Below, in pieces: positions 13,249 through 29,225 of a stretch of DNA of 64,000 nt. The position numbers and the translations under genes are program-made. Source of the DNA: Afipia sp. (GTDB taxonomy: Bacteria; Pseudomonadota; Alphaproteobacteria; Rhizobiales; Xanthobacteraceae); assembly GCA_024707075.1 (NCBI GenBank), contig JANQAK010000006.1, positions 310,001-374,000 on the forward strand, in the 5' to 3' direction. The number at the start of each line of letters is the position of its first letter. Position 1 is the stretch's first letter. Under the pieces are notes generated by a model, which worked only from the letters and a program-made list of their open reading frames with translations, searched no databases and had not been told where the DNA came from.

Positions 13249-14220
13249 TCAGGCCGGGCCCGTTTGATCGTCATCGGCGGCAAGCAGCGCGGGCGGATGG
13301 TCCTCCCGCAGTTTGCTGTAGGTGAGATGGTAGCGCATATCGTGCGGGTCCAAGGCCTGGCGGCAGTGATCGCACGCGACGATCGGTTCGAAATCGTGGC
13401 CGCAGTCGAGGTGTTTAAGGATGAGAGGCTTTTCGTAGCCGAGCCATTTGTCGCCCCAGCGCAGCATCTGGATCAGCGGCAAATATAGATCCCGTCCAGC
13501 CGTTGTGAGCTTGTATTCGTAGCGTTCCGGCACATCGAGATATTTCACCCGTCTCAGAATGCCCTGACTCACGAGGCGGTTGAGCCTGTCGGTCAGAATG
13601 TTTGTCGCGATGCCGAGCCGCTCCTGCAACACATCGAACCGCCGGACACCGAAACACATTTCGCGCACCACCAGAAAGGTCCAGCGATCTGCCAGGATGC
13701 CGAGCGTGCGCGAGACCGATGAGGGGCGTCCGCGCTCGAACGTTTCGACGCCGCCGCTGCGCCTGCGTTGCGGCATGGCGGTTGCGTGCGAAACGCCTGC
13801 ACCCGGGCCATCCCGATAGACCACCCGAAGCGCGTTGACCGGTTCGCGGCAGGCCGAGCAGATCGTTTCGGGATGGCATTCGTGCCCGCAGGTTGTGTGG
13901 ACAAGCCTGAGCGGCGGCGGCTTGTCACCCGCCAGCCAGTCATCGCCGAATCGCAGCATCGCAAGCATGACGAGATAGAGATCGAAGCCTCGCTCGGTCA
14001 GGCGATATTCGAAGCGTGCGCTTCCGGCGAGCGGGACGCGAGAGAGGACTTTGGCCTTGACCAGTTGCGCAAGCCGGGCGCTGAGCGTGCTGCGCGGCAT
14101 GTGAAGCACGGCTTGCACCTGATCGAAACGGCGCGCGCCGAGATAGACTTCTCTCAGGACGAGGAAGGACCAGGCGTCTGACAGGATCGTCAGCGTGCGA
14201 TCGACGGAGCAGTTGCGCAC
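13249..14220 (-). CDS. Tandem-duplicated HxlR-type regulator (two wHTH plus two zinc-ribbon-like modules)
   Basis: A 323-residue protein, about twice or more the size of an ordinary HxlR regulator. Module one (about 1-130) has a winged helix (ILSDAWSFLVLREVYLGARRFDQ) followed by TCGHECHPETICSACRE. Module two (about 165-305) repeats this: ILADRWTFLVVREMCFGVRRF, then DCGHDFEPIVACDHCRQ. The paired CxxC-like motifs suggest metal-binding ribbons after each helix-turn-helix. The start is GTG; a TAA lies 20 codons upstream in frame. A homologue lies at 19242-20301 on the other side of the molybdenum hydroxylase genes, so the pair probably controls that island. Ligand unknown. Confidence 0.85.
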   Translation of the reverse strand: MRNCSVDRTLTILSDAWSFLVLREVYLGARRFDQVQAVLHMPRSTLSARLAQLVKAKVLSRVPLAGSARFEYRLTERGFDLYLVMLAMLRFGDDWLAGDKPPPLRLVHTTCGHECHPETICSACREPVNALRVVYRDGPGAGVSHATAMPQRRRSGGVETFERGRPSSVSRTLGILADRWTFLVVREMCFGVRRFDVLQERLGIATNILTDRLNRLVSQGILRRVKYLDVPERYEYKLTTAGRDLYLPLIQMLRWGDKWLGYEKPLILKHLDCGHDFEPIVACDHCRQALDPHDMRYHLTYSKLREDHPPALLAADDDQTGPA

Positions 14221-14324
14221 CAGCGGGCGCTCCGCGGTCCTGGATGACTGCCGAAGCGTGCGGGAGGTGGGTTTTTAGACGAGGTGCGCGCCATGCATCT
14301 GCTCTTGACCAGCGATGGCTGGTG

Positions 14325-15170
14325 TTAGTCGCGCCGTTCAGTCCATGCTTGCGCGAGTTGATCGATCACGTCGCGATCGACATGAACGGTTCCGGTCTGT
14401 TGCCGGCCGAACAGGTAACCGATCGCCGCGACAATAACGAGCAGAACACCGCCCGTGAAATCGGGTGAGACATGCGCCCCGCCGCTTGGGGTGAGGCTCG
14501 GCAATGCGCCGCCGAACAGATACCAGCACGCGCCGATTGCTGCGAGTAACAGCACGAAACCGGCGGATTTTACATGCTTTAAAAGTCCCGGCGTGATGTC
14601 CATCGGCGCTGGAGCAGGGCGGGGGCGGCGAGGTGTTTGATGGTGCGGGGCGTTTTGTGCGGCCGGTGTGCTTATCGCCGCCGCGCCCGTCGGACCCGTG
14701 CTCTGCTGCGCCTGCGTGCTGTCGCCGTATTGCGCCTCGATCTCCTCGGCGAAGCGTTTAAAGAAGAGGCCGGACATTTGTTTGGCAGTAGCATCAATCA
14801 ACCTGCCGCCGAGTTGCGCCAGCTTGCCGCCCACGTCGGCGTTCACGGTGTAGTGCAGGATGGTGTCGTCGCCGTCCTGTTCGAGGCGTACGACGGCGCT
14901 GCCCTTGGCGAAGCCTGCCACACCGCCCTGGCCTTCGCCCGCGATGCGATATCCGTTTGGCGGATCGAGGTCCGATAATGTGACCGCGCCCTGGAATTTG
15001 GCGGTGACGGGGCCGACCTTGATCAGCGCGGTGGCTGTCATCTGGGTGTCGGAGGTTTTGACCAGTTCCTGGCAGCCGGGAATGCAGGCTTGCAGAACCG
15101 CCGGATCGTTGAGAGCCTTCCACACGGTCTCGCGGGTTGCGGGAATGCGCTGCTGGCCTGTCATGTCCAT
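14325..15170 (-). CDS. CoxG-like SRPBCC protein with C-terminal membrane anchor
   Basis: 281 residues. The first about 150 form a CO dehydrogenase subunit G (SRPBCC) domain: MDMTGQQRIPATRETVWKALNDPAVLQACIPGC and GGKLAQLGGRLIDATAKQMS are family hallmarks. A proline-rich linker (TPRRPRPAPAPMD) follows. Then come two hydrophobic segments (about 203-222 and 236-258) that would anchor the domain to the inner membrane. CoxG of Oligotropha recruits CO dehydrogenase to the membrane, so this protein probably tethers the molybdenum hydroxylase encoded divergently at 15343-19123 to a membrane electron acceptor (inference). Confidence 0.85.
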   Translation of the reverse strand: MDMTGQQRIPATRETVWKALNDPAVLQACIPGCQELVKTSDTQMTATALIKVGPVTAKFQGAVTLSDLDPPNGYRIAGEGQGGVAGFAKGSAVVRLEQDGDDTILHYTVNADVGGKLAQLGGRLIDATAKQMSGLFFKRFAEEIEAQYGDSTQAQQSTGPTGAAAISTPAAQNAPHHQTPRRPRPAPAPMDITPGLLKHVKSAGFVLLLAAIGACWYLFGGALPSLTPSGGAHVSPDFTGGVLLVIVAAIGYLFGRQQTGTVHVDRDVIDQLAQAWTERRD

Positions 15171-15245
15171 AATGTCGTCTCCTTAACCCCGACGCGTTGC
15201 CGTGGCTCGCGCTGGTTCGGTCATCCAACTTGCGCCCCGGTCATC

Positions 15246-15278
15246 TTGACATGTCCTAACATAGTCTAATAATGCAAG
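15246..15278 (+). promoter_or_regulatory. coxMSL promoter with the shared 17-bp element (copy 1)
   Basis: TTGACA (15246-15251) and AATAAT (15268-15273), 16 bases apart, read as a sigma-70-type promoter. The element TAGTCTAATAATGCAAG (15262-15278) overlaps the -10 and recurs at 21585-21601 (minus strand, 15 of 17 identical) and 25116-25132 (14 of 17). It is 65 bases upstream of the coxM-like start. Confidence 0.6.
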
Positions 15279-15342
15279 TCACTATGGAAGCCGAAAGAAT
15301 CTTGGGATCGCGGCATAAACCGGACGGATCGGGAACCGCTAT

Positions 15343-16221
15343 ATGAAGCCAGCGTCGTTCGACTATGTCCGGGCCGAAAGTGCTGAACATGCCGTGCAGG
15401 CGCTTGCTGCGGCGGGTGGTGACGGCAAGGTGATCGCGGGCGGCCAAAGCCTGATGCCGATGATGAACTTCCGGCTGGTGAAGCCGTCGGTGCTGGTGGA
15501 TATCAATCGCATTCCCGGTCTCGATGCCGTGCAGATGCGCGGTGACAGGATTGTGCTGGGCGCGCTCGTCCGTCATCGCATGACGGCGACAGATATGCTG
15601 ATCCAGAAACATATTCCGGTGCTGCATCATGCGATGAAGCATGTGGCGCATCTGACGGTTCGCAATCGGGGTACATTTTGCGGCAGCGTCTGCCACGCCG
15701 ATCCGGCGGCCGAGATGCCAATGATGTCGCTGCTGCTCAATGGTGCCGTTCACATCGTCTCTCCCCGCGGCGAACGCACGCTTGCCGCACAGGATTTCTT
15801 TGTCGGCTCGCTGGTCACGGCGCTGGAGCCCGACGAACTCGTCACCGAAATCGAGATCGATACGTTGCCCGCCGGGACCGGCTGGGGATTCGAGGAATTT
15901 GCCCGGCGTCACGGCGATTATGCACTGGCTGCGGTGGCCGTCACGATGCAGCGACGGGATGGTGTAGCTTCGGACGTGCGCATCGGCCTCATGGGCGTCG
16001 GAGAAATGCCGATGCGCGCACCGCAAATCGAGGCCATGCTGGAAGTCCGCGAGATTGATGCCGCACTGCTCGACGAGGCCATCGATGCGCTGCGGGCCAG
16101 CCTCGAACCGAATTCCGACCTGAACGCATCGGCGGACTATCGCCGTCATCTGGCGGGCGTGCTTGCACGGCGTGCCATATCGGATGCCTGGGCGCGGGCG
16201 GAGAAAGGTGCCGCGGCATGA
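15343..16221 (+). CDS. Molybdenum hydroxylase FAD-binding subunit (CoxM/XDH medium subunit type)
   Basis: 292 residues, medium subunit of a xanthine dehydrogenase/CO dehydrogenase-family enzyme that passes electrons from Fe-S clusters to FAD. The first FAD motif is AGGQSLMPMMNFRL (about 32-46) and the second TVRNRGTFCGSVCHADPAAE (about 105-125). The C-terminal CO_deh_flav_C domain follows (about 175-280). The gene overlaps the next by ATGA. As in other cox-like operons the order is M-S-L. The substrate cannot be deduced from this subunit. Confidence 0.88.
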   Translation: MKPASFDYVRAESAEHAVQALAAAGGDGKVIAGGQSLMPMMNFRLVKPSVLVDINRIPGLDAVQMRGDRIVLGALVRHRMTATDMLIQKHIPVLHHAMKHVAHLTVRNRGTFCGSVCHADPAAEMPMMSLLLNGAVHIVSPRGERTLAAQDFFVGSLVTALEPDELVTEIEIDTLPAGTGWGFEEFARRHGDYALAAVAVTMQRRDGVASDVRIGLMGVGEMPMRAPQIEAMLEVREIDAALLDEAIDALRASLEPNSDLNASADYRRHLAGVLARRAISDAWARAEKGAAA

Positions 16222-16700
16222 GCGAGCGCACCGAGATCGCTGTTTCCGTCAACGGCCTGTCCTATACGCGAACCGTCGAACCGCGCATGCTGCTGGCGGA
16301 TTTCCTGCGCCATGAACTCGGACTGACCGGCACGCACGTCGGCTGCGAGCATGGTGTCTGTGGCGCATGCACAGTCCTGCTCGATGGACGCAGCGCGCGC
16401 TCCTGTTTGACGCTGGCGGTGCAGGCGGATGGCGCCGACATCGAGACTGTCGAAGGACAGGGGACGGTTGAGAAGCTCGGAAGAATTCAGCAGGCGTTCC
16501 GGGATCACCATGGGCTTCAGTGCGGTTTTTGTACGCCGGGCTTTATCATGACCATCGCTGACATGCTGCGGCATCATAGCCTCGATAGCGACGAGGAAAT
16601 CCGCGAGGCATTGTCGGGCAATATCTGCCGCTGCACCGGCTATGAGCATATCGTCAATGCGGTGCGCGAACTGGCAAAGGAAAGAGGAGCGCTCAAGTGA
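16218..16700 (+). CDS. Molybdenum hydroxylase [2Fe-2S] subunit (CoxS type)
   Basis: Small subunit, 160 residues, with both expected Fe-S clusters. Cys43, Cys48, Cys51 and Cys63 form the plant-ferredoxin-type site (VGCEHGVCGACTVLLDG). Cys102, Cys105, Cys137 and Cys139 form the proximal site (LQCGFCTPG and ICRCTGY). All eight ligands are present, so this subunit is intact and would carry electrons from the molybdenum centre to FAD. Confidence 0.93.
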   Translation: MSERTEIAVSVNGLSYTRTVEPRMLLADFLRHELGLTGTHVGCEHGVCGACTVLLDGRSARSCLTLAVQADGADIETVEGQGTVEKLGRIQQAFRDHHGLQCGFCTPGFIMTIADMLRHHSLDSDEEIREALSGNICRCTGYEHIVNAVRELAKERGALK

Positions 16701-16731
16701 GAACGCTTTCCATTGTCATGGCGGTCCTGAT

Positions 16732-19123
16732 ATGAGCGCATTCGACTCATCATCGGTCGAGATGCGGCCCAAGATGGTGGGCCAGCGCATCAAGCGCACC
16801 GAGGACCCGCGTTTGCTTGCGGGTGTCGGGCGCTATGTCGACGACATCACGCCACAGGGCACGCTTCATATCGCGATCAGGCGCAGCGACCAGCCGCATG
16901 CGCGTATTCGCAGCATCGATGTGGGCGAAGCCTTTGCGGTGCCGGGCGTGGTGGCGATCTTCGATGCCGCCGACCTCGACGGCGACCTCAAGCCGGCCGT
17001 TCCGACGTCGAAGATGAAAAACTACTATGCCACGCCGATCTGGCCGCTGGCGCGCGGCAAGGTGCGCTATGTGGGTGAGCCGGTCGTTGCTGTCGTTGCC
17101 GAGAGCCGCTACGCGGCCGAGGATGCGCTGGAGCATATCTCGATCGACTACGAGCCATTGCCGTTCGCGATCCGCCAGACCGATGCGGTGGCCGACGATG
17201 CGCCGCTGCTTCATGAGGAAGCCGGAACCAATGTCATCATCTCCCGCGAATTCGCGCGCGGCGATGTCGACAAGGCGATTCAGGACGCACCGGTGACGCT
17301 GAAAGGTATTTTCCGCATGACGCGGAAAACGGCGGTGGCGATGGAGAATCGCTCCTATCTGGCTGAGTGGGACAAGCGCCGTCTCGCTTTGACGCTGCAT
17401 TCGTCAACCAATATTCCCGGCGTGATCCGCGATGTGCTCGCAAGTTGCTTCGACCTTCCCGGCAACCGGATGCGTGTGGTCGCTCCTGATGTCGGCGGCA
17501 GCTTCGGCGGCAAGGGATCATTGTATCACGAAGAGATGCTGGTCTGTGCGCTCGCGCGCAAACTCGGGCGGCCGATCAAGTATACGAGCGACCGGCTGGA
17601 AGATTTGTCATCCACCAGTCAGGCCTTCGACGAGTTGATGGACGTCGAACTTGCCGTCGATCGCGATGGCAAACTGCTTGGCCTGCGCGCCGACGTGATC
17701 GGCGACATCGGTGCCTATTCGATCTATCCGTGGACCGGCGCGCTGGAGCCTGTGCAGGTGGTGAGCTTCCTGCCGGGACCGTATCGTCTCGAGCATTATC
17801 GTGGCCGTATCCGGGGCGTGCTCACACCGAAGCCGCCGACCGGTCCTTATCGCGGCGTTGGCCGTCCATCCTCGACGTTTGCGATGGAACGGCTCATCGA
17901 TATGGCCGCGCGCAAGATCGGCTTGGATCCCGCCGAGATGCGCCGCCGCAATCTGGTGACAGCCGAAGAGTTCCCCTATCGGACCGGCTCGGGCATCATC
18001 TGGGACAAATCGGCGTTTCAGGAATGCTTGCAGGCGGCATGCGATTATCTGGATTACCCCTCGCTGGTGCGCGAGCGCGACAAGGCGCGCGCCGAGGGAC
18101 GCTGGGTCGGCATCGGTCTGGCCAGCTACGCCGAATTGACCGGCATTGGCTCGCGCATCTCGGCTGCGCCCGGTATGCCGATCAATACGGGCACCGAGAC
18201 GTCGGCGATCCGCATTGATGCGACCGGCGCGATTACCGCGGCCTTCGGCATTTCCTCGCATGGGCAGGGCCTGGAGACGACGCTGGCGCAGATCATCGCT
18301 GATGAACTCGGCTGCACGATGGAAGACGTGGAGGTTCAGCACGGCGACAGCGCTTTGGTGCCCATGAGTACCGGAACCTTTGCCAGCCGTTCCGCGGTGA
18401 TTGGTGGAGGTGCTGCGATCGTGGCGTCGCGTACGCTCAAGGCAAAGGTTCTGGAGGGCAGCGGCGCATCTGATGAATCAGCCGGTGGAGGAACTGGACG
18501 CATCTGGCGGGATCATCCGTTCGCGTGCGTCCAATATCTCGATGACGTTCAAGGACGTCGCCAATGCGGTCTATTCGCAGATGGGTGCCATCCCGCGTGA
18601 GCAACGCGAGGATCTGGCGGTGTCCGAGACCTACGATCCCTATCTCGGTACGGCCTGCTCCTCCACGCATCTGGCGATGGTGGAGATTGATCCGGAAACC
18701 TATGGCGTCACCATCAAGCGTTATGTCGTGGCTGAGGATTGCGGACGGATCATCAATCCAATGATCGTCGATGGCCAGGTGCAGGGCGCGGTCGTACAGG
18801 GGATCGGAGCCGCGCTGCTGGAGGAGATCGTTTATGATGATCAGGGCCAGTTCGTCACGGCCAGCCTTGCGGATTATCTTGTCCCGGTCGCCACCAACGT
18901 TCCTCCCATCGGCATCGTTCATATCGAAGCGGATTTGCCGAATAACATCGGCGGATTCCGTGGCATGGGAGAGGGTGGTACGATCGGCGCGCCGGCCGCC
19001 ATTGCGAATGCGGTATCCGATGCGCTGTCGCCGCTCAGCATCGAGGTCGACACGCTTCCGGTCACGCCCGAACGGATCTTCCGCATGGTCGAAGCAGCGC
19101 GCGCACGGAACAAGGTTGTATAA
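16732..19123 (+). pseudogene. Molybdenum hydroxylase large subunit (CoxL/XDH type), single-base frameshift
   Basis: Catalytic subunit of the xanthine oxidase family, about 797 residues when repaired. The N-terminus VGQRIKRTEDPRLLAGVGRYVDD, the loop GGSFGGKGSLYHEE and PYRGVGRP are visible. The last stands where true CO dehydrogenases carry AYRCSFR, so this is not a form I CO dehydrogenase. The C-terminal GMGEGGTIGAPAAIANAV holds the conserved active-site Glu. The frame breaks near 18456-18458 (GGG): before it LKAKVLE, after it AAAHLMNQPVEELDASGG in another frame; dropping one G joins them. Without repair the C-terminal quarter, including the Glu, is lost. The SL spacing and intact coxS/coxM suggest a sequence error. 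Confidence 0.82.
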
Positions 19124-19241
19124 CGCGCCGGGCATGTGGTCTTGACGCGACCGGCATATCCCTTCAAGATTCGCAGCAAGGATTCAGCTCTCGGAAATCC
19201 ACGTTATAATCATGCGCTAGAAAGCGATCGGTCTGGGCGAG

Positions 19242-20301
19242 ATGGCACGGCTAGGGCTTGCAACAAAAGAAAAACGGCCGGCCAAGCCCTTGAATCCAGT
19301 TTCTCCAGTCCGTACAGGCAAGAAGTCGTCCAGGCTCACCGAACGCCGCTGCTCCATTGCGAGCACGGTGGGCATTCTCTCCGATGCATGGGCCTTTCTG
19401 GTCATCCGGGAGGCGTTTTTCGGCGCCAAACGTTTCGAGGAGTTTCGCTCGGGCCTTGAAATTTCACGGGCGACGCTGACAGACCGGCTGCGACGCCTGA
19501 CGCGCGAAGGCATCCTCCGCGAGGTGAGCTATTCCGATACGTCGAGCCGGGTTGAATACAAGCTGACAAAATCCGGCATCGATCTTTATCCGGCGTTCAT
19601 GGCGCTGATGCAGTTTGGTGACCGCTGGCTGACCAGCGCGAACGAAGTCCCGTTACAACTGATCCACGAGGGCTGCAATTGTGTCAGCAAGCCGATTGTC
19701 GCCTGCTCCTGTTGCGAGCGGCGCATCGTGGCCCGAGACGTCAGCTATCACGATGGACCGGGCGCGGGCAGGGTCCGCATCGAGACCTCCAGACGCAGCC
19801 GCCGCACCGCCGACGATTTCATGCGTGGCCGCCCCAGCTCGGTGTCGCGCGCCCTTGAGGTGATCGGTGATCGCTGGAGCTTTCTGGTCATTCGCGAAGC
19901 CTTCTATGGCGCCGCGCGATCTCGACCAGCTTCAGGCCGAACTGAACATCGCGTCGAATATTCTGACGGATCGTCTTGCGCGTCTCGTCGAGCGCGGGGT
20001 TTTCAGGAAACGGAAGTATCAATCCGCGCCGGAACGTTTCGAGTATCTGCTGACGCCGATGGGAACCGATTTGCACGGGCCGCTGATCATGATGATGGCG
20101 TGGGGCGATCGCTGGCGGGCGAACGGCGAGCCGCCGATGCTTCTCAAGCACGAGACCTGCGGCAAGGTTTTCACGCCGGTCGTCGTCTGCAACCGCTGCG
20201 GCGAGCCGATCCATGCCTACACGATGAAGTATCGGATGCGGTATAACCCCGACAAGTTTGGCGGGCCGAAGAGCGGCCGGGCAGTGCCCGGCCGCGTTTG
20301 A
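19242..20301 (+). pseudogene. Tandem-duplicated HxlR-type regulator, frameshifted in second module
   Basis: Paralogue of the 323-residue regulator at 13249-14220, with the same plan: wHTH (ILSDAWAFLVIREAFFGAKRFEEF), ribbon-like GCNCVSKPIVACSCCERR, linker, RGRPSSVSRALEVIGDRWSFLVIREAFYGA, then TCGKVFTPVVVCNRCGEP. The frame changes at GGCGCCGCGCGAT (about 19908-19920): the expected ARDLDQLQAELNIASNIL continues one frame over to 20301. One extra base in the GC-dinucleotide stretch explains it; repaired length is about 352 residues. The first module alone, if translated, would still be a complete HxlR domain. Confidence 0.78.
20273..20295. repeat. 11-bp inverted repeat at a convergent gene junction, weak terminator candidate
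   Basis: GCGGCCGGGCA (20273-20283) and TGCCCGGCCGC (20285-20295) are perfect inverted arms around one base. It overlaps the last codons of the HxlR gene and is followed by only a short GTTT. It may stop transcription between two convergent genes, but the missing U-tract keeps confidence low. Confidence 0.45.
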
Positions 20302-20319
20302 TAAGCTGCGTTCGTCGGC

Positions 20320-21531
20320 TTATTTCTTGATGAGCGGGCACTTGCTTTCCGACAGCGGCCGGAAGGCTTCGTCGCCGGGAATGACAGCGTGGAGCTTGTA
20401 GTAGTCCCAGGCGTACTTGGATTCCGAAGGCTTCTTCACCTCATACACATACATGTCGTGAATGAAACGGCCGTCCTCGCGAACGCGACCATTCTTGGCG
20501 AAGAAATCGTTCACCGGCATCTCGCGCATCTTTGCCATCACGACCTTGGCGTCGTCGGTGCCGGCCGCCTTGATCGCATTGAGATAGTGCATGGTCGAGG
20601 AATAGTCACCGGCATCGCCCATGTGCGGCATGCGCTTCATCTTTGCGAAAAACTTCTTCGAGAACGCCCGCGTATCCTCGTCACGATCCCAGTAGAAACC
20701 GTTGGTCAGAACGAGTCCCTGAGCTGCGGTCAAACCCATCGAGTCGATATCTGTGATCCAGACCAGCAGGCCAGCGATGGTCTGCTTGCCGCCGTCAGTC
20801 AGGCCGAAGTCCTTCGCGGACTTGACGGCATTGATGAAGGTCGTGCCGGAGCCTGCAATGGCGACGACCTTTGCTTTCGAGGCCTGGGCCTGCAACAGGA
20901 AGGAAGAGTGATCGGCAGTATCGATAGGATAGCGGATCGCGCCAACAACGGTGCCCCCGTTTGCCTTTACCACACCGGCTGTATCTGCTTCGAGAGCGTG
21001 TCCGAACGCGTAGTCGGCTGTGAGAAAGTACCAGGAATTCAGACCTTCCTTGATCAGCGCTTTGCCGGTGCCCTGTCCCAGAGCGTAAGTGTCATACGCG
21101 TAGTGGATGCTGTTCGGCGTGCACGAATCGCCCGTCAGACGCGAAGATCCGGATCCGTTGACGATGGCGATGCGGCTCTTCTCCTGCGCGACATTGGTGA
21201 CAGCCAGCGCGATCGATGAGTTGATCAGGTTCGCGATCATGTCGACCTTGCCGACATCGTACCACTCGCGTGCCTTGGCGATCGCTACTTCATTGCGGTT
21301 CTGGTGATCGGCGACGATCACTTCGATCGGCTTGCCGAGCACTGTGCCGCCGAAATCCTCGACGGCCATTTTGACCGCGGTCACCGAACCTTCGCCCGCC
21401 TCGTGGGAGAACTGTCCGGACATGTCGGTCAAAACACCGATTTTCACCACATCGTCCGAGATTTTCGTCTGGGCGTAAGCCGGGCCCGCCAATGCGAGTC
21501 CTGCGGCAAGCGCCAATGTCATCTTCTTCAT
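20320..21531 (-). CDS. Branched-chain/aromatic acid type ABC substrate-binding protein (Peripla_BP_6)
   Basis: 403-residue periplasmic binding protein with Sec signal MKKMTLALAAGLALAGPAYAQ and a strong AGAGGAAG ribosome site. Mature start VVKIGVLTDMSGQFSHEAGEG. The C-terminal VIPGDEAFRPLSESKCPLIKK parallels the binding protein at 6782-7990, so the two are paralogues. It is divergent from the livGF, livH, livM genes, which encode the matching importer. A shared promoter element links it to the other catabolic units of this island, suggesting the ligand is the substrate of that pathway. Confidence 0.9.
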   Translation of the reverse strand: MKKMTLALAAGLALAGPAYAQTKISDDVVKIGVLTDMSGQFSHEAGEGSVTAVKMAVEDFGGTVLGKPIEVIVADHQNRNEVAIAKAREWYDVGKVDMIANLINSSIALAVTNVAQEKSRIAIVNGSGSSRLTGDSCTPNSIHYAYDTYALGQGTGKALIKEGLNSWYFLTADYAFGHALEADTAGVVKANGGTVVGAIRYPIDTADHSSFLLQAQASKAKVVAIAGSGTTFINAVKSAKDFGLTDGGKQTIAGLLVWITDIDSMGLTAAQGLVLTNGFYWDRDEDTRAFSKKFFAKMKRMPHMGDAGDYSSTMHYLNAIKAAGTDDAKVVMAKMREMPVNDFFAKNGRVREDGRFIHDMYVYEVKKPSESKYAWDYYKLHAVIPGDEAFRPLSESKCPLIKK

Positions 21532-21584
21532 TGCTTCCTCTCCTCTTGTTTAAAATGGTCCGGTACCGCGGCCCAACAGATAGG

Positions 21585-21621
21585 CTTGCATAACTAGACT
21601 AATTTGGTATGACGCTGTCAA
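21585..21621 (-). promoter_or_regulatory. Binding-protein promoter with the shared 17-bp element (copy 2)
   Basis: Read on the minus strand, TTGACA (21621-21616) is followed after 17 bases by TCTAGT, inside TAGTCTAGTTATGCAAG (21601-21585). The same TTGACA-N17-TCTAnTTATGCAAG layout occurs at 25096-25132. The gene start is 54 bases further on. Confidence 0.6.
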
Positions 21622-21678
21622 CAGGCGCGATGAACTTGCTTGCATTGCGCTGCACAACTGGTCGGAGGAGACAGCCGG

Positions 21679-23199
21679 ATGGATGCGACGCATGGTCATG
21701 CCGTGCCGGATGCCGACATCGTGTTGCAGGCACGAGGTTTGCGGAAGGTATTCCGCGGCTTCGTCGCTGTCAGCGGTGTGGACCTCGACATCCGCCGTGG
21801 CGCTATCCATGCGCTGATCGGGCCGAATGGCGCGGGAAAGACGACGGTCTTCAACCTTCTGACGAAATTCCTGAGCCCGACATCGGGGCGCATTCTGCTC
21901 GAAGGCGTGGAAGTCACGGCGGAGCGCCCTGCGGCGCTTGCGCGGCTTGGGCTGGTGCGGTCGTTTCAGATTTCGGCGGTGTTTCCGCACCTTACGGTGA
22001 GCGAGAACGTCGCCATCGCGCTCCAGCGCAGTTCTGTGTCGCCCGTAAAGTTCTGGCAGGGCCGCTCGCGGTTCGGGGATATGCCGGCGCGCATCGAGGC
22101 GCTGCTGGATCAGGTCGATCTCGGCGCGTTCGCGCATCAGCGCGCCGGCGATCTTGCTTACGGCCGTAAGCGTGCGCTTGAACTGGCGACGACACTCGCC
22201 GCCAATCCGAAGGTCATGTTGCTCGACGAGCCGACGCAGGGCCTCGGCCATGAAGACGTCGACCGTGTAACGGCGCTGATCAAGCAGGTGGCAATTGGCC
22301 GCACCGTCGTGATGGTGGAGCACAATATGAAAATGGTGGCGCGCATTGCCGACCGGATCAGCGTGCTGCGCCGTGGCGAGATCATCGCCGAGGGGGCGTA
22401 TGACGAAGTGTCACGCGATCCCCAGGTGATCGAGATCCTATCTTGGCTCCCGGTCGCGCGCAGCGGAGCGCAAGCAATGACGACAGCAGCAAGTGGCGGA
22501 ACAGACGCGCTCTCGGTGCAGAATCTCCACGCCTGGTACGGGGAGTCCCATATCCTGCACGGAATGTCATTCTCCCTGCAACGTGGGGAAGTGGTTGCAT
22601 TGCTCGGCCGCAACGGCAGCGGCCGGACCACAACCCTGCGTGCCATCATGGGATTGATCGATCGGCGCGAGGGGATCATCCGCATCGGCGGCAAGGATGC
22701 GATCCATCTGGCGCCGCATCTGGTTGCGCGCCTCGGTGTCGGATACTGCCCGGAAGAGCGCGGTATTTTCGCGTCGCTCTCATGCGAGGAAAATCTCCTG
22801 CTGCCGCCACAGCAATCCAGCGGCGGCATGCAGCTCGACGAGATCTACACGCTGCTGCCCAATCTGGCCGAGCGGCGTCATACGCCGGGCACGCGGCTGT
22901 CGGGTGGCGAACAGCAGATGCTGGCGATCGCGCGCATCCTGCGGACCGGCGCACGTCTGCTGTTGCTCGACGAGATTTCCGAGGGGCTTGCCCCGGTGAT
23001 CGTCGATCGGTTGTTCGATCTCATCACCGAACTGAAGTCCCGCGGGTACACCATCCTGCTTGTCGAGCAGAATAAATACTTCGCCGAACCGCTGGCTGAT
23101 CGTTTTCTCGTGGTCGAGCATGGCGACGTCGCGATGCGCCTGTCCGCATCGGAGTTTGCCGCGCGGGCCGAACTCGTTGACCGCACGCTGGGCGTTTGA
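21679..23199 (+). CDS. LivG-LivF ATP-binding proteins reading as one fused ORF
   Basis: Two complete ABC ATPases of a branched-chain-type importer. The first (about 1-250) has Walker A GPNGAGKTTVFN and Walker B KVMLLDEPTQGL. The second (about 275-506) has GRNGSGRTTTLRAIM, signature LSGGEQQMLAIARIL and LLLLDEISEGLAP. In the second Walker A the usual Lys is replaced by Arg (GSGRTT), which is unusual. The fusion is probably artificial: removing one base at 22435-22438 gives the normal LivG ending YLGSRSRAAERKQ and a TGA at 22478-22480 overlapping an ATG at 22477 as ATGA, the standard LivG/LivF junction. I take the real genes as 21679-22480 and 22477-23199. Confidence 0.82.
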   Translation: MDATHGHAVPDADIVLQARGLRKVFRGFVAVSGVDLDIRRGAIHALIGPNGAGKTTVFNLLTKFLSPTSGRILLEGVEVTAERPAALARLGLVRSFQISAVFPHLTVSENVAIALQRSSVSPVKFWQGRSRFGDMPARIEALLDQVDLGAFAHQRAGDLAYGRKRALELATTLAANPKVMLLDEPTQGLGHEDVDRVTALIKQVAIGRTVVMVEHNMKMVARIADRISVLRRGEIIAEGAYDEVSRDPQVIEILSWLPVARSGAQAMTTAASGGTDALSVQNLHAWYGESHILHGMSFSLQRGEVVALLGRNGSGRTTTLRAIMGLIDRREGIIRIGGKDAIHLAPHLVARLGVGYCPEERGIFASLSCEENLLLPPQQSSGGMQLDEIYTLLPNLAERRHTPGTRLSGGEQQMLAIARILRTGARLLLLDEISEGLAPVIVDRLFDLITELKSRGYTILLVEQNKYFAEPLADRFLVVEHGDVAMRLSASEFAARAELVDRTLGV

Positions 23200-23207
23200 G
23201 GATCGTT

Positions 23208-24086
23208 ATGTTCGATATTCCGTTACAGGTGCTGCTCGGGCAAATCACCATCGGTCTGGTGAACGGTTGCTTTTACGCGATCCTGAGCCTTGGCCTGGCG
23301 CTGATCTTCGGCCTTCTCAACGTCATCAACTTCGCTCACGGCGCGCTCTATATGCTTGGCGCCTTCGGCGTCTACCTCGCCATGCAGAAGCTCGGGGTGA
23401 ACTACTGGTGGTCGCTGCTGCTGGTGCCTGTCGTCGTCGGGGCGTTCGGCGCATTGGTCGAACGGCTATTGCTACGCCGCCTCGTCGGCCTCGATCATCT
23501 CTATGGCCTGTTGTTCACCTTCGGTCTGGCGCTGGTTCTTGAGGGAATCTTCCGCGACATCTATGGCTCCGCGGGCTTGCCGTATCCGACGCCACCGGCC
23601 CTGCGTGGCCTGATCGATCTTGGCTTCATGCGGCTACCGATCTACCGGGTCTGGATCGTCGCCGCGTCGCTGGTAGTCTGTTTTGCGACCTGGTTCCTGA
23701 TCGAGCGCACGCGGCTGGGGTCCTATCTGCGTGCGGGCACCGAGAATTCGAAGATGGTGCAGGCGCTCGGCATCAACGTCCCGCTCATGGTGACGTTCGT
23801 CTACGCGCTGGGCGCGGCGCTTGCGGCCTTCGCCGGCGTGCTGGCCGCGCCGATCTATCAGGTTCAGCCGCTGATGGGATCGAACATCCTGATTGTGACC
23901 TTCGCCGTCGTCGTGATCGGCGGGCTGGGATCGACGGCGGGTGCCATCGCCACCGGACTGGCGCTCGGCGTCATCGAAGGGCTTTCCAAGGTGTTCTATC
24001 CCGAAGTGTCCTCGACCATCGTTTTCATTGTCATGGCAATCGTTCTTCTGGTGCGCCCGGCCGGTTTGTTTGGACGTGAAGCATGA
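23208..24086 (+). CDS. livH: Branched-chain type ABC transporter permease LivH
   Basis: 292-residue inner-membrane permease. I use the ATG at 23208, with GAGGA five bases upstream, not the TTG at 23196. Family hallmarks: GLVNGCFYAILSLGLALIFGLLNVINFAHGA at the N-terminus (block around 10-40) and the C-terminal region VVVIGGLGSTAGAIATGLALG with VLLVRPAGLFGR at the end. It overlaps livM by ATGA. Substrate is probably an organic acid rather than leucine, judging from the catabolic surroundings. Confidence 0.9.
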   Translation: MFDIPLQVLLGQITIGLVNGCFYAILSLGLALIFGLLNVINFAHGALYMLGAFGVYLAMQKLGVNYWWSLLLVPVVVGAFGALVERLLLRRLVGLDHLYGLLFTFGLALVLEGIFRDIYGSAGLPYPTPPALRGLIDLGFMRLPIYRVWIVAASLVVCFATWFLIERTRLGSYLRAGTENSKMVQALGINVPLMVTFVYALGAALAAFAGVLAAPIYQVQPLMGSNILIVTFAVVVIGGLGSTAGAIATGLALGVIEGLSKVFYPEVSSTIVFIVMAIVLLVRPAGLFGREA

Positions 24087-25099
24087 GCGCCATGAAAACA
24101 TCCACCGTTCTTCTCATTACGCTTGCCGTTGTCGGTATTCTCGCGCCGCTGACCGGGCTTTATCCGCAGTTCCTGATGAAGTGCGTTGCGCTGGCGCTGT
24201 TCGCCGTCGCATTCAACTTCTTCACCGGCAATGTTGGATTGCTCTCGATCGGTCACGCCGCGTTCTTCGGCATGGGCGCCTATGCGGCTGGTTACGCTAC
24301 GAAGGCGTGGGGCTTTACGCCGGAGCTCGCCCTCATCCTCAGCGTCCTGGTCGGCATTGTGCTGGGAATCGTGATGGGCGGAATGGCCATCCGCCGCCAG
24401 GGAATCTATTTCGCGATGATCACGCTGGCGCTGGCACAGATGGTTTATTTCGTCTGTGTGCAGGCGCCTTTCACCGGCGCGGAAGACGGCTTGCAGCGGA
24501 TTCCGCGGCACGCGCTGTTTGGCTTGATCGATCTATCCAACGACCTCACGATGTATGCATTTGTTCTCGCCGTCATGATCGCGGCAGTCTGGGGCTTCCA
24601 GCGGATCATGGAATCGCCGTTCGGCCAGGTGCTGCTTGCCATTCGTGACAACGAGCCGCGCGCGATTTCGCTGGGATACGATGTCCAGAAGTACAAGCTG
24701 TCGGCGTTTGCGATGTCGGCGGCGATTGCCGGTCTGGCAGGCGGGGTGAAGGCGCTGACGCTCGGATTCGCCGGTCTGCCTGATGCGCACTGGACGCAAT
24801 CCGGCAATGTCATTTTGATGTGTCTGCTCGGTGGTCTCGGCACGCCGCTCGGTCCGGTGATCGGCGCGATTCTGGTGGTGGCTCTTGAGAGCCGGCTGTC
24901 CGGCCTTGGCGTGGTTCAGATCGGACCGATCGCGCTCGATTTGTCCAGCAAAGTGCCGATCATTATCGGCTTCATCTTCATGATTTGCGTGCTCTTGTTC
25001 CGCCGTGGCATCGTCGGCGAGATCAGCGCGGCTTTTGCATCCGCGAAAGCGCGCCGGTCATCCGCTGCCGATACCGAAAAGAAATCCACAGCAAGTTGA
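24083..25099 (+). CDS. livM: Branched-chain type ABC transporter permease LivM
   Basis: 338-residue partner permease. Hallmarks are FNFFTGNVGLLSIGHAAFFGMGAY (about 45-70), RRQGIYFAMITLALAQMVYF, and the EAA-like loop IRDNEPRAISLGYDVQKYKL. About ten hydrophobic segments are visible. It closes the transporter unit; 110 bases of promoter region follow before the alcohol dehydrogenase gene. Confidence 0.9.
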   Translation: MSAMKTSTVLLITLAVVGILAPLTGLYPQFLMKCVALALFAVAFNFFTGNVGLLSIGHAAFFGMGAYAAGYATKAWGFTPELALILSVLVGIVLGIVMGGMAIRRQGIYFAMITLALAQMVYFVCVQAPFTGAEDGLQRIPRHALFGLIDLSNDLTMYAFVLAVMIAAVWGFQRIMESPFGQVLLAIRDNEPRAISLGYDVQKYKLSAFAMSAAIAGLAGGVKALTLGFAGLPDAHWTQSGNVILMCLLGGLGTPLGPVIGAILVVALESRLSGLGVVQIGPIALDLSSKVPIIIGFIFMICVLLFRRGIVGEISAAFASAKARRSSAADTEKKSTAS

Positions 25100-25132
25100 C
25101 ATCGGTCGCCTAAATAAGTCTACTTATGCAAG
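25096..25132 (+). promoter_or_regulatory. Catabolic operon promoter with the shared 17-bp element (copy 3)
   Basis: TTGACA (25096-25101) overlaps the livM stop. After 17 bases comes TCTACT within AAGTCTACTTATGCAAG (25116-25132). The arrangement equals that on the minus strand at 21621-21585. The first gene of the operon starts 78 bases downstream. Confidence 0.6.
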
Positions 25133-25209
25133 CGACTTGTTTCGCGAAACGATTGGCCTATGGCGGATCTCGCGAGGCCTGGTTGGCCCAAGGTTGAACG
25201 GAGTTCGGA

Positions 25210-26361
25210 GTGCAGGGTTTCGTCTTTCAATCCACAAAATCGATTCTGGTTGAGCCTGCCAGTTCGTCGCGCATCGGCGAGTTGGTAAAATCGCTTGGCT
25301 GTACGTCTGTTCTGCTGGTGAGCGATCCCGGCGTGAAAGGTGCGGGGCTGTTGCAGGCGGGATTGCAGGGGCTGGAGCAGCGGGGGATCGCGGTCACGCT
25401 GTTCACCGATGTTCAGGCCGATCCGCCGGTTCATGTGATCGAGGCTGCGGTCAAGCTGGCCGTCGATGCGAAGGTCGATGGCGTTGTCTCCATCGGCGGC
25501 GGCAGTTCGATGGATGTGGCCAAGCTCGTGGCACTGCTCGCAGTCGGTCAGGAAAAGCTCGACGACATCTATGGCGTCGGCATGGTCAAGGGACGCCGCC
25601 TGCCGCTGGTGCTCGCGCCGACGACAGCGGGGACCGGATCAGAGGTCACGCCGATCTCGATCGTCACGACCGGCGAGGGTGAGAAGAAGGGCGTCGTTTC
25701 TCCGGTATTGCTGCCGGACTGGGCTGTGCTGGACGCGGAGTTGACGCTCGGATTGCCGCCCGCAGTGACGGCGGCTACCGGCATCGATGCGATGGTTCAC
25801 GCCATTGAGGCCTATACCAGCAAGCGCCTGAAGAATCCGCTGTCGGACGCGCTCGCGCGCGATGCGCTGCGGCTGCTCGGCGGCAACATTCACGAAGCCT
25901 GCCGCAACGGTACCAACCGCGAGGCCCGCCACAACATGCTGCTCGGCTCCATGCTGGCCGGCATGGCGTTCGCCAACGCGCCGGTCGCAGCCGTGCATGC
26001 GCTGGCTTATCCGGTCGGTGCGCGTTTTCACGTTCCGCACGGGTTGTCGAATTCGCTGGTGCTGCCGCAGGTGATCCGCTTCAACGCCAGCTCCGCCGAA
26101 CAGCACTACGGTGAACTCGCCACGATCCTGACGCCGAACGCCAAGGGAAACTCGGCCGATCGCACCAAGGCGTTGGTCGAAATGCTCTCGGCGCTCCCCG
26201 TAGATCTCGGGTTGCCCACGCGGCTGCGCGACGTTGGCATTGGGCACAATGATCTCGGCATGCTGGCCGACGATGCGATGAAGCAAACGCGGCTTCTCAT
26301 TAATAACCCGCGCGAGGTCGTGCATGCCGACGCGCTGGCGATTTACGAGGCGTCGCTATGA
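25210..26361 (+). CDS. Iron-containing alcohol dehydrogenase
   Basis: Group III (Fe-ADH) dehydrogenase, 383 residues, starting at GTG after ACGGAG. The NAD-binding region holds GGGSSMDVAKLVALLA (about 97-112) and PTTAGTGSEVTP. Metal ligands are visible as Asp and His in GIDAMVHAIEAY and two His in HALAYPVGARFHVPHG. Close relatives include gamma-hydroxybutyrate dehydrogenase and maleylacetate reductase types. With the downstream lactonase-like hydrolase and semialdehyde dehydrogenase it makes a set equivalent to blcB, blcC and blcA of Agrobacterium (inference). First gene of a seven-gene operon; ATGA overlap with the next. Confidence 0.88.
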   Translation: MQGFVFQSTKSILVEPASSSRIGELVKSLGCTSVLLVSDPGVKGAGLLQAGLQGLEQRGIAVTLFTDVQADPPVHVIEAAVKLAVDAKVDGVVSIGGGSSMDVAKLVALLAVGQEKLDDIYGVGMVKGRRLPLVLAPTTAGTGSEVTPISIVTTGEGEKKGVVSPVLLPDWAVLDAELTLGLPPAVTAATGIDAMVHAIEAYTSKRLKNPLSDALARDALRLLGGNIHEACRNGTNREARHNMLLGSMLAGMAFANAPVAAVHALAYPVGARFHVPHGLSNSLVLPQVIRFNASSAEQHYGELATILTPNAKGNSADRTKALVEMLSALPVDLGLPTRLRDVGIGHNDLGMLADDAMKQTRLLINNPREVVHADALAIYEASL

Positions 26362-26804
26362 CGGAGCGGCCAAAACCCGATCATCGAAGTGCCTATGTAT
26401 ATTTCCAGACGATGACAACACGCTGGATGGACAATGACTCCTACCGGCACATGAACAACACGACGTACTATTCCTTTTTCGATACGATCGTGAACATGTA
26501 CCTGATCGAAAATGCCGTTCTCGATGTCGAGAAGAGCGAGGTGATCGGTCTGGTGGCGGAAACCATGTGTCGTTACTTCAGGTCGATCGGTTTCCCCTCG
26601 AAGATCGATGTTGGACTTCGGGTCGGTCATCTCGGCAACAGCAGCATTCGCTACGAAATTGCGCTGTTCAACGGCGATGAGGACGTCGCATCCGCGCAGG
26701 GGCATTTCGTTCACGTCTATGTCGACCGCGAGAGCGGACGCCCGACACCGCTTCCGGAAAAGCTGAAATCGATCGCTGCGCCGTTACAGCGTGCCGTGAC
26801 TTGA
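26358..26804 (+). CDS. Acyl-CoA thioesterase, 4-hydroxybenzoyl-CoA thioesterase/YbgC type (hotdog fold)
   Basis: 148 residues. The motif TRWMDNDSYRHMNNTTYYSFFD is the hallmark of this hotdog family, with the Asp and the HxNN region at the active site. The enzyme would hydrolyse an intermediate CoA thioester or recycle CoA. Its place between an alcohol dehydrogenase and an enoyl-CoA hydratase supports a role in a CoA-dependent catabolic route, but the specific thioester is unknown. Confidence 0.85.
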   Translation: MTERPKPDHRSAYVYFQTMTTRWMDNDSYRHMNNTTYYSFFDTIVNMYLIENAVLDVEKSEVIGLVAETMCRYFRSIGFPSKIDVGLRVGHLGNSSIRYEIALFNGDEDVASAQGHFVHVYVDRESGRPTPLPEKLKSIAAPLQRAVT

Positions 26805-26851
26805 TAACGTCGGATGGCTGCCGTTCGGGCGGTCTCGCAGGAGTAGAGAAC

Positions 26852-27625
26852 TTGGCCGATATTGACGTTGCCATTCAGGACCAGATCGCAGTGGTGACGC
26901 TCAACCGGCCTGCGGTGCGCAACGCCATGATGCTTGCCATGTGGCAGGGTATTGCCGAGATTTTTGCACGGCTGGGTCGCGACCCTGACGTGCGTGCGAT
27001 CATCCTGACCGGTGCCGGTGGAAATTTCAGCGTCGGCGCCGATGTCTCGGAATTCGCGAAGGTCCGGTCGAACGTCGCGGAGAGCAAGGCCTATGAGGTC
27101 GCGGTGGATGCATCATCTGATGCCATCGCGAATGCGCCGAAACCGGTCATCGCCGTTCTTGGGGGATATTGCCTCGGCGGCGGCTGTCATCTCTCGATGG
27201 CCTGTGACTTCCGCTATGCGCACACCGATACGGCGATCGGCATTCCGGCGGCGAAGCTGTCGATCGTGTATGGTGTCCGCAGCACGCAACGCCTGCTGGG
27301 GTTGGTCGGATTGACCCACGCCAAGCGCATTCTGTACTCCGCAGATCGTTTCAGCGCGGCGGATGCCAAGAGCATGGGACTTGTCGACCGGGTGTCGAAC
27401 GATCCGATGGCTGACGCGAAGGCCTTCGCCGCTGAGATCGCCAAGCTCGCGCCGTTGTCGGTTGAAGGTGCCAAGCGAATTCTGACCGGCTTGTCGATGG
27501 GGCCGGGCGCGCTGGATGTGGAGGCCGCCGAGGCTTTCATCGATCGCGCATCGGCCAGCGAGGATTACGAGGAAGGTCGCCGGGCATTTGCCGAGAAGCG
27601 TTCGCCAATGTTCCGCGGGAGATAG
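26852..27625 (+). CDS. Enoyl-CoA hydratase/isomerase family protein
   Basis: Crotonase family, about 257 residues. I chose TTG at 26852 because CAGGAG lies 8 bases upstream, giving the family-like start MADIDVAIQDQIAVVTLNRP. Oxyanion-hole regions are ILTGAGGNFSVGADVSEFA (about 52-70) and GGYCLGGGCHLSMACDFRYA (about 102-121). Later parts (LLGLVGLTHAKRILYSADRF) are conserved. It could hydrate an unsaturated acyl-CoA made by the pathway. The badK hydratase step missing from the bad operon could in principle be served by this gene, but no specific sign of that is seen. Confidence 0.87.
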   Translation: MADIDVAIQDQIAVVTLNRPAVRNAMMLAMWQGIAEIFARLGRDPDVRAIILTGAGGNFSVGADVSEFAKVRSNVAESKAYEVAVDASSDAIANAPKPVIAVLGGYCLGGGCHLSMACDFRYAHTDTAIGIPAAKLSIVYGVRSTQRLLGLVGLTHAKRILYSADRFSAADAKSMGLVDRVSNDPMADAKAFAAEIAKLAPLSVEGAKRILTGLSMGPGALDVEAAEAFIDRASASEDYEEGRRAFAEKRSPMFRGR

Positions 27626-27633: not shown

Positions 27634-28396
27634 ATGAAAATGCATGTTCTGTCGGGCGGCCGTCTTCGCATGAAGAAGAGCATCTATTTCCCGGATGCCG
27701 ACCGCAGCGAGATGATCGAGCTTCCGGTGTCGTGCATGCTGATGCGGCATGCGCAGGGTAATGTGCTGTTCGACACCGGCTGCCATCCCACCATTGCGGA
27801 AAATCCTGAAGGGCGCTGGGGCGGCCTTGCGAAGTACATGACACCGATCATGCCGCCCGGCGAAAACGTCCTGACCGGCCTCAAGGCCGTCGGCCTCGGC
27901 CCGGACGATATCGATGTGGTGGTCTGCTCGCATCTCCACACCGATCATTGCGGCTGCAACGAGTTCTTCAGGAAATCGACCATCGTCGTGCATGCGCGCG
28001 AGCTGGAAGCGGCGAAAGCGCCGGATGCCTTGGCGAGCGGCTATTTTTTCGGCCGACTGGGATCATCCGATCCCGATGAAGGTGATCGAGCAGCAGACCG
28101 ACCTGTTCGACGACGGCAAGATCACGCTCATTCCGCTGCCCGGCCATACACCGGGCACCCTCGGCGCGCTGGTGAAACTCGATCGCAGCGGCGAGTTTCT
28201 GCTGACGTCAGACGCTCTCAGCATTCGCACCAATCTCGATCAGGAGATTGTGCCGAAGAACACAAAGAACACCGAGCAGTTCCTGCAATCGTTTGCCGAA
28301 ATCCGGCGGATCGAGAAGGCAGGCGCGACAATTATTTGCAGCCATGACAGCGCGCAGTGGGAGTCCCTGCGCAAGGGCATGGATGCCTACGACTGA
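27634..28396 (+). pseudogene. Metallo-beta-lactamase fold hydrolase, AHL/gamma-lactone lactonase-like, frameshifted at T6
   Basis: About 253 residues when repaired. The zinc motif SHLHTDHCGCNEFF (HxHxDH) and later LPGHTPGTLGALV with a C-terminal CSHD are complete. Closest family in my judgement is the AttM/BlcC lactonase group (HxHxDH with the MLMRHAQGNVLFDTGCHP N-terminal strand). The frame leaves the family at a run of six T (28044-28049): with one T removed it continues as GYFSADWDHPIPMKVIEQQ to 28396. As written the protein loses half its metal ligands. Eight bases after the hydratase gene and co-directional with the rest of the operon. Confidence 0.8.
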
Positions 28397-28447: not shown

Positions 28448-29200
28448 ATGGATATGCATCTGAAGGGCAAGGTTGCTCTCGTCACTGGCGCCGGCCGCGA
28501 TGTCGGCCGCGAAATCGCGCTCAGCCTGGCGGCGGAAGGCGCGGCCGTTGCCGTCAATTATAATGGCTCGCGTGAGCGCGCCGCCGCCGTGGTGGCCGAG
28601 ATCGAGAAGGCCGGCGGCAAGGCCATCGCCTACAAGGCCGACGTCGCCAACTTCGATGAAGTGCAGGCAATGGTCGCCAAGATTGTCTCCGATTTCGGCG
28701 GACTGAATATCGTCGTCAACAATGCCGGCGTGGCACTGCGCAACCGTTTCGTCGAGACGACGCCGGAGGAATGGAAGAAGCAGATCGACATCTGTCTCTA
28801 TGGTGCGATTCATATTTCCAAGGCAGCGGCGCCGCATCTCGAGAAGGCAGGCGACGGACGGATCATCGCTCTGGTGGGCGATTCCTCGCGCGTCGGTGAA
28901 TCGGGGCTCGCCATCGTGGCGGCGGCGCGCGCCGGCGTCATCGCGCTGATGAAATCTCTGGCGCGCGAAATGGGCCGCTTCGGCGTGACCGCGAACACGA
29001 TCTCGCTGGGTCTGGTCGAAACGCCGCATGATCTCGACTGGGTCAATGCCAACCGCGACAAGCTGACCAAGCTCTACCCGCTGCGCCGCCTTGGATTCCC
29101 GTCCGACATCGCGCCGATGGTGACGCTGCTGGCCTCGAAGCACGGCGGATGGATCACCGGGCAGACCATCAGCATCAGTGGCGGATTCAGCATGGTCTGA
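28448..29200 (+). CDS. SDR-family protein lacking the catalytic Ser-Tyr-Lys
   Basis: 250 residues with a normal Rossmann region (VTGAGRDVGREIALSLA) and NNAG. At the active site it reads VGDSSRVGESGLAIVAAARAG. Aligned by eye to the BadH of this window (ASDAARVGSSGEAVYAACKAG), Ser becomes Gly, Tyr becomes Val and Lys becomes Arg. Ordinary dehydrogenase chemistry therefore seems impossible, although cofactor binding may persist. The C-terminal GWITGQTISISGGFSMV is ordinary. The gene is intact and keeps its place in the operon, so it probably has a function, for example as a regulatory or structural partner, or with a different chemistry. Confidence 0.85.
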   Translation: MDMHLKGKVALVTGAGRDVGREIALSLAAEGAAVAVNYNGSRERAAAVVAEIEKAGGKAIAYKADVANFDEVQAMVAKIVSDFGGLNIVVNNAGVALRNRFVETTPEEWKKQIDICLYGAIHISKAAAPHLEKAGDGRIIALVGDSSRVGESGLAIVAAARAGVIALMKSLAREMGRFGVTANTISLGLVETPHDLDWVNANRDKLTKLYPLRRLGFPSDIAPMVTLLASKHGGWITGQTISISGGFSMV

Positions 29201-29225
29201 TGACCTGCAAGGAGGGGAGGAGACT

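Follow-up and report, generated by a model that had tools for sequence, protein, structure and literature searches.

The 17-bp element and its promoters in the Afipia window

The subject of this analysis is a 17-bp DNA element, described by the pattern WAGTCTANTWATGCAAG, in a 64,000-nt stretch of Afipia sp. DNA, the whole of which is called the window here. The element stands at three promoters of a gene cluster that encodes a coxMSL-type molybdenum (Mo) hydroxylase, a Liv-type ATP-binding cassette (ABC) importer, a catabolic operon linked to coenzyme A (CoA) and two tandem HxlR-HxlR proteins, the candidate regulators. The element copies, the hexamers around them and the regulator genes are as follows:

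13249..14220, minus strand: HxlR1, intact tandem HxlR-HxlR regulator of 323 aa with HxxC-x9-CxxC after each domain; candidate binder of the element
15246..15251, plus strand: -35 hexamer TTGACA of the coxM promoter, 10 bp before copy 1
15262..15278, plus strand: element copy 1, TAGTCTAATAATGCAAG, over the -10 hexamer (AATAAT) of the coxM promoter
19242..20301, plus strand: HxlR2, second tandem HxlR gene, with a frameshift near 19921; intact in relatives
21585..21601, minus strand: element copy 2, TAGTCTAGTTATGCAAG, over the proposed -10 hexamer (TCTAGT) of the binding-protein promoter
21616..21621, minus strand: -35 hexamer TTGACA of the binding-protein promoter, 14 bp before copy 2
25096..25101, plus strand: -35 hexamer TTGACA of the iron-dependent alcohol dehydrogenase (Fe-ADH) operon promoter, 14 bp before copy 3
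25116..25132, plus strand: element copy 3, AAGTCTACTTATGCAAG, over the proposed -10 hexamer (TCTACT) of the Fe-ADH operon promoter

The three copies lie at the places and on the strands given in the initial annotation of this DNA, and the distance of 54-78 bases to the gene starts reported there agrees with 65, 54 and 78 bases measured from the last motif base to the start codon for copies 1, 2 and 3 (starts 15343, 21531 and 25210). TTGACA was correctly placed 17 bases ahead of TCTAnTTATGCAAG in copies 2 and 3, but the hexamer that copy 1 has of its own (15246-15251) had gone unmentioned; it lies 4 bp nearer to the element than in the other two copies, and TTGACA-N16-AATAAT matches the sigma-70 consensus at 11 of 12 positions. 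The common element itself stands, with the amendment that part of what the promoters share is core promoter, the element doubling as the -10 region.

Distribution of the element and co-occurrence with tandem HxlR proteins

Searches of the window at up to three mismatches revealed 3 matches, against a mean of 0.30 in shuffled sequences (2 of 100 shuffles reached 3). In the 5.3-Mb genome, the pattern was found exactly three times, never at 1-2 mismatches and 16 times at 3 mismatches, while the reversed pattern gave 87 matches at up to three mismatches. The whole-genome scan that the initial annotation had proposed as a check returned only three copies at up to two mismatches and no crowd of random matches. 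Since the pattern was read off these three sites, the window and genome counts are post hoc, and the search of other genomes with the fixed pattern is the unbiased test.

That search covered 391 genomes, the window's own included, all from one family and taken out of a larger group, and gave 50 exact matches in 28 genomes, compared to one for the reversed control; 47 of the matches, in 27 further genomes, lie beyond the window's own genome, all at this cluster. Forty-three of the 50 share a contig with a listed HxlR gene no more than 11.9 kb away and the other 7 are on contigs bearing cluster genes; all 50 exact occurrences in the searched genomes belong to this gene cluster. A tandem HxlR protein was detected in 47 of the 391 genomes (E<=1e-40), among them every one of the 28 genomes with an exact motif, and the motif occurs in none of the 344 genomes without such a protein (Fisher test, 1.5e-30). 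The choice of the HxlR proteins as candidate binders is strongly supported by this association. When 200 relatives were searched at up to two mismatches, 92 had a match, and the reversed control was as frequent or more so; chance matches being common at that level, only exact and one-mismatch sites in the cluster carry weight. At the class level, 2 of 385 genomes, the window's own included, matched the HxlR search at E<=1e-70, and the one other genome had no site at up to one mismatch in its two short stretches. An Rfam search of positions 13000-26000 returned two sub-threshold matches, neither at the element, and the reading as an RNA element was rejected.

Position of the element in rearranged clusters

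The other genes of the cluster in the window are as follows:

14325..15170, minus strand: coxG-like gene (Pfam COXG), divergent from coxM
15343..16221, plus strand: coxM-like flavin adenine dinucleotide (FAD) subunit of the Mo hydroxylase
16218..16700, plus strand: coxS-like 2Fe-2S subunit
16642..19123, plus strand: coxL-like Mo subunit, with a frameshift near 18453 (pieces 16642-18600 and 18401-19123)
20320..21531, minus strand: periplasmic binding protein (Peripla_BP_6) of the Liv-type ABC importer
21682..23199, plus strand: LivG/LivF-like ATPases, forming a single frame in the window (1-bp insertion near 22435) and encoded by two genes in relatives
23196..24086, plus strand: LivH-like permease
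24083..25099, plus strand: LivM-like permease
25210..26361, plus strand: Fe-ADH, first gene after copy 3
26358..26804, plus strand: 4HBT thioesterase
26801..27625, plus strand: enoyl-CoA hydratase family protein (ECH2)
27634..28396, plus strand: lactonase-like gene of the metallo-beta-lactamase fold, first piece AhlS/AttM-like, with a frameshift near 28044
28448..29200, plus strand: short-chain dehydrogenase/reductase (SDR), FabG/PhaB-like
29178..30791, plus strand: acyl-CoA ligase (AMP-binding)
30793..32265, plus strand: succinate-semialdehyde dehydrogenase (SSADH), above NCBIfam cut-offs

Gene mapping covered the window, 54 fetched stretches and a Plastoroseomonas locus (56 stretches, 937 kb), with the window's own genes and an AbfD-like gene as queries; the regulators traced in relatives were those that the window encodes. 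These stretches contain 87 sites at up to one mismatch to WAGTNNANTWATGCAAG, 60 of them exact, compared to one, not exact, for the reversed pattern. Operon heads were called mechanically and a site was counted within 260 bp upstream at up to one mismatch; the test disregarded matches under 44% identity, loci L116 and L117, and any start no more than 260 bp from the end of a stretch. A site precedes 71 of the 139 called heads and 13 of the 297 internal genes, the latter being 11 Fe-ADH and 2 coxM genes. A control on random stretches, from which the real sites were not excluded, gave 49 hits in 3000 at up to one mismatch. Counted by gene, a site precedes the heads coxM (22/24), ECH2 (10/10), 4HBT (6/6), the AbfD-like gene (3/3) and the binding protein (28/40, or 34/40 at up to two mismatches), and 11 of 12 Fe-ADH genes. 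Sites face none of 15 LivFG heads and one of 16 coxG heads; these genes are often divergent from a site-bearing gene and may share its site. The site is kept despite changed gene order, e.g., before an ECH2-coxM-coxS-lactonase-coxL-SDR-ligase operon in one genus (g25). The proposal of a regulon linking hydroxylase, importer and catabolic operon has thus gained strong support from comparative genomics, both from the presence of tandem HxlR in 28 of 28 genomes and from the element's position at operon heads.

Promoter register

The alignment comprised 84 sites, after removal of duplicates sharing the same 60 bases of context and of sites too close to the end of a stretch. In 69 of the 84, TTGAC precedes the site by 8-15 bp. 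A distance of 10-11 bp goes with A at base 10 of the site (28 of 29 cases) and one of 12-15 bp with T (38 of 39); one further site, at 8 bp, also has T. In the 10-bp register, the -10 hexamer reads ANTAAT after a 16-bp spacer, as in copy 1 of the window; in the 14-bp register, it reads TCTANT after a 17-bp spacer, as in copies 2 and 3. TTGAC and the -10 hexamer shift by 4 bp relative to the element, the 17-mer remains constant, and conservation extends beyond the -10 hexamer through ATGCAAG and often TNAC. Judging by the alignment, a fixed putative operator is separable from a promoter shifting beneath it. The combination of a fixed operator, a moving promoter and a covered -10 hexamer argues for a repressor, and most likely the bound protein would block RNA polymerase.

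No strong palindrome or direct repeat was revealed across the 84 aligned sites (the best dyad scored 1.29 summed over 14 pairs, with a maximum of 0.75 per pair), and an operator of either kind was rejected. By eye, copies 1 and 3 have an outer AGT-N15-ACT dyad that copy 2 does not have. According to the gene maps, which were not accompanied by a separate test, no element stands right before HxlR genes except in L115, where a one-mismatch site precedes a distant paralogue. In the window, a regulator gene lies downstream on each side of copy 1, which probably places both genes under feedback control.

The tandem HxlR-HxlR proteins

The "tandem HxlR proteins" of the initial annotation are indeed encoded by two genes in the cluster, but each product is itself a chain of two HxlR units, and in this assembly the second gene carries a frameshift. 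HxlR1 matches PF01638 with 125.5 bits (gathering cut-off 20.8) in two stretches, and it departs from the single-domain definition of the HxlR family by having two HxlR domains in one 323-aa chain. Fifty-one open reading frames of the window and the fetched loci (HxlR1 included, the frameshifted HxlR2 dropped as short) align to HxlR1 over at least 250 residues, spanning both domains. The recognition helices, with roles assigned from the helix-turn-helix fold, are unlike each other and each is conserved in 47 of these proteins, the four distant ones (G042, G045, G139 and G241) being left out: R.TL..RL in domain 1 and NIL..RL in domain 2. All 34 aligned sequences have H108, C111, H270, C283 and C286, and nearly all have C121, C124 and C273. 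AlphaFold 2 modelling of the two-domain chain gave a mean predicted local distance difference test (pLDDT) score of 87.3 and a predicted template modelling (pTM) score of 0.86, so the model positions the two domains relative to each other with some confidence. The best solved matches, each to a single domain, were PA1607, PA1374 and other HxlR proteins; the search compared single domains, and the domain-domain placement stands outside its comparison with known dimers. Two unlike putative recognition helices in one chain match an asymmetric site.

In the window, as in many members of the genus, the HxlR2 gene comes after coxL. Genomes in which only one of the two tandem types was found still have the element, and either type seems to suffice. 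A literature search gave no report on the 17-bp element or on natural tandem HxlR regulators among the matches listed. The HxlR1 search returned 863 proteins at E<=1e-60, those seen bearing generic names and the two-domain status not being checked for each. The large group of double HxlR regulators gains a predicted binding site and target genes, and the system could offer a natural case for testing how a regulator of the homodimer type becomes a single-chain reader of an asymmetric site.

Cluster genes and the probable pathway

Compared to the close relative G024, the window has four 1-bp insertions, near 18453, 19921, 22435 and 28044, which break coxL, HxlR2 and the lactonase gene and merge LivG with LivF; since the frames are intact in relatives, the insertions may be sequencing errors or decay. 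The Fe-ADH (258 bits) is below the 500-bit cut-off for 4-hydroxybutyrate dehydrogenase, the first piece of the frameshifted lactonase gene is below family cut-offs, and the longer piece of the frameshifted CoxL reaches 353 bits, where the TIGR02416 CoxL equivalog cut-off is 991. Gene content was tabulated for 42 genomes from the fetched stretches, which often cut the cluster, at no less than 44% identity over at least 100 residues; the binding protein, coxMSL, lactonase, SDR, acyl-CoA ligase and ECH2 are present in most of them.

Orphan sites in three loci (L092, L119 and L100) precede HpaB/AbfD-type genes. The operator-linked AbfD-like protein of L119 (genome G009) strongly matches 4-hydroxybutyryl-CoA dehydratase/vinylacetyl-CoA isomerase (PDB codes 6vjr, E 1e-213, and 1u8v, E 4e-155), and the genomes of L092 and L100 (G011 and G028) have relatives 85% and 78% identical to it. 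The Fe-ADH gene and the AbfD-like gene each occur in 12 of the 42 genomes, and both occur together in one (G028); the thioesterase accompanies Fe-ADH in 11 of 12 genomes, compared to 2 of 12 genomes with the AbfD-like gene. This distribution suggests two alternative exits from a 4-hydroxyacyl-CoA. The AbfD-like gene was not found in the window's cluster, where Fe-ADH and SSADH are present instead.

Based on these gene contents, the pathway probably ends in C4 4-hydroxyacyl/gamma-lactone metabolism. An acid, as a CoA ester or lactone, would most likely be channelled to a C4 4-hydroxyacyl intermediate, which could leave by thioesterase, Fe-ADH and SSADH or by the enzyme resembling 4-hydroxybutyryl-CoA dehydratase. 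A different substrate, a furan- or N-heteroaromatic acid undergoing hydroxylation of the furoyl-CoA or quinoline type, without a route to C4 hydroxyacids, would agree with quinoline 2-oxidoreductase as the closest solved relative of CoxL, and a furan ring could be opened by an enzyme set of this kind (ligase, Mo hydroxylase, hydratase, lactonase); SSADH in the window and the AbfD-like dehydratase in relatives, however, point to C4 units, and this alternative appears doubtful. The two ideas are compatible if a ring route feeds C4 units. With an unassigned Mo-hydroxylase cluster tied together in this way, its substrate could be sought using a reporter.

A separate cluster at 8202-13153 comprises genes for an SDR, an acyl-CoA dehydrogenase, an AliA-type ligase, a hydratase and a MarR regulator; the cyclohexanecarboxylate-CoA ligase is above its NCBIfam cut-off. 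No copy of the element is present in this cyclohexanecarboxylate cluster, and it was rejected as a member of the regulon; the alicyclic substrates that had been listed for the regulon are not implied.

Model of regulation and alternatives

The preferred reading, to which we give a probability of roughly 0.75 on comparative grounds, is that the 17-bp element is the operator of the cluster-encoded tandem HxlR-HxlR regulator and defines one regulon comprising coxMSL, the ABC importer and the CoA-linked catabolic operon. The tandem HxlR protein would sit on the -10 box of sigma-70-type promoters and block RNA polymerase until a compound of the pathway released it; the two HxlR domains of one chain would probably act as a built-in pseudo-dimer reading a non-palindromic site. 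A broader proposal, made tentatively, combines a single-chain HxlR pseudo-dimer with a zinc-ribbon-like knuckle per domain, an asymmetric operator with two unlike half-sites and, for Afipia-type bacteria and their relatives, an as yet undescribed catabolic pathway that would join Mo hydroxylation and CoA activation to gamma-lactone/4-hydroxyacyl metabolism; its two exchangeable exits (thioesterase/Fe-ADH/SSADH or 4-hydroxybutyryl-CoA dehydratase) would be under the same operator, and a chemoreceptor would have been recruited in one genome.

Several observations weigh against the operator reading. The genomes are related, so the counts are not independent events. Nineteen of the 47 genomes with tandem HxlR have no exact match; 12 of these have sites at 1-2 mismatches to a relaxed pattern, and 7 have distant paralogues only (4 of the 7 were left out of the site examination). 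Sixty-eight of the 139 called heads have no site at up to one mismatch, including divergent genes, 18 coxL starts (doubtful as heads, since the coxL query carries an upstream extension), 12 of 40 binding-protein heads and 2 of 24 coxM heads; 6 of these 12 and 1 of these 2 have a site at exactly two mismatches. In a genome of another family (G139), the site before coxM is reversed and points away from it (L105 14463, minus strand). The link between HxlR and the element is one of association, with no other regulator systematically searched for. Finally, B. subtilis HxlR is an activator, as the molecule name and PMC7835342 indicate, so that the sign of control could differ.

In line with this last point, the tandem HxlR protein could bind the element and activate, as B. 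subtilis HxlR switches on an hxlAB reporter after formaldehyde modification (PMC7835342); this is unlikely, given that a site over the -10 hexamer at a variable distance from the -35 hexamer (main groups 10 and 12-15 bp) better suits occlusion than contact activation. The element could also be the operator of another regulator, either the neighbouring MarR protein (12677-13153) or one encoded away from the cluster. The identity of the binding protein cannot be proved by association, the MarR gene adjoins HxlR1 in the window and in G024, and the mapping in relatives covered only the window's regulators; yet the MarR gene is present in no other mapped stretch, whereas tandem HxlR is present in all 28 exact-motif genomes, and the MarR gene lies beside the cyclohexanecarboxylate cluster, where the element is lacking. 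In addition, the mapped genes of two compact clusters (L134 and L136) leave no gap above 360 bp, and another regulator seems quite improbable. That the element is merely a strong core promoter (-35, -10 and start region), shared through relatedness or promoter duplication and served by no dedicated regulator, is very improbable: the overlap with the proposed -10 hexamer in all three copies and the frequent TTGAC upstream agree with it, but the confinement of exact copies in the 391 genomes to this cluster and to genomes with tandem HxlR, the 4-bp shift of TTGAC and the -10 hexamer against a constant 17-mer and the conservation beyond the -10 hexamer do not.

Comparison with known systems

The tandem HxlR protein has its closest counterparts among HxlR/DUF24 regulators (B. 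subtilis HxlR, YodB and HypR; QsrR), since each half of the tandem protein is an HxlR winged helix (PF01638). PMC7835342 describes B. subtilis HxlR as having a single domain and binding DNA in dimeric form, and reports a sensor in which two copies of it were artificially joined into one chain. In contrast, the cluster's protein combines two unlike domains in a naturally linked chain, each with HxxC-x9-CxxC, and the operator assigned to it is asymmetric. PA1607 and PA1374 of Pseudomonas aeruginosa (PDB codes 2f2e and 4gcv), named putative transcription factors in their records, are single-unit proteins, whereas here the unit is doubled.

The catabolic genes resemble the AttKLM/BlcABC system of Agrobacterium, the repressor of which, BlcR, belongs to a regulator family different from HxlR, and in which we take AttL and AttK to be an alcohol dehydrogenase and a succinate-semialdehyde dehydrogenase, respectively. 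A gene set of this type, defined partly from general background, is present in the window as the lactonase-like gene (27634-28396), Fe-ADH and SSADH in one gene run, to which the cluster adds a Mo hydroxylase, CoA ligase, hydratase, SDR, thioesterase and Liv importer. The metallo-lactonase operon of Agrobacterium is described in PMC5924552 as being under a specific repressor and as degrading gamma-butyrolactone via 4-hydroxybutyrate and succinic semialdehyde.

Variant sites in other loci

Two tandem operator-like copies, 22-23 bp apart, are present at binding-protein promoters in three loci (L106 10581, L107 9868 and L112 9622); these copies end in CATG or CTAG and not in CAAG. In the genome G028, an operator variant, TAGTTCATTAATGCAAG, is located at the start of an sCache_2 chemoreceptor (methyl-accepting chemotaxis protein) gene with an uncertain start codon (L101 14584, minus strand), which suggests that chemotaxis joined the regulon there. 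The locus of Plastoroseomonas hellenica (L052) encodes a protein 80% identical to HxlR1 and contains two operator variants, before the binding-protein gene and coxM, which suggests a transfer of the whole module between organisms.

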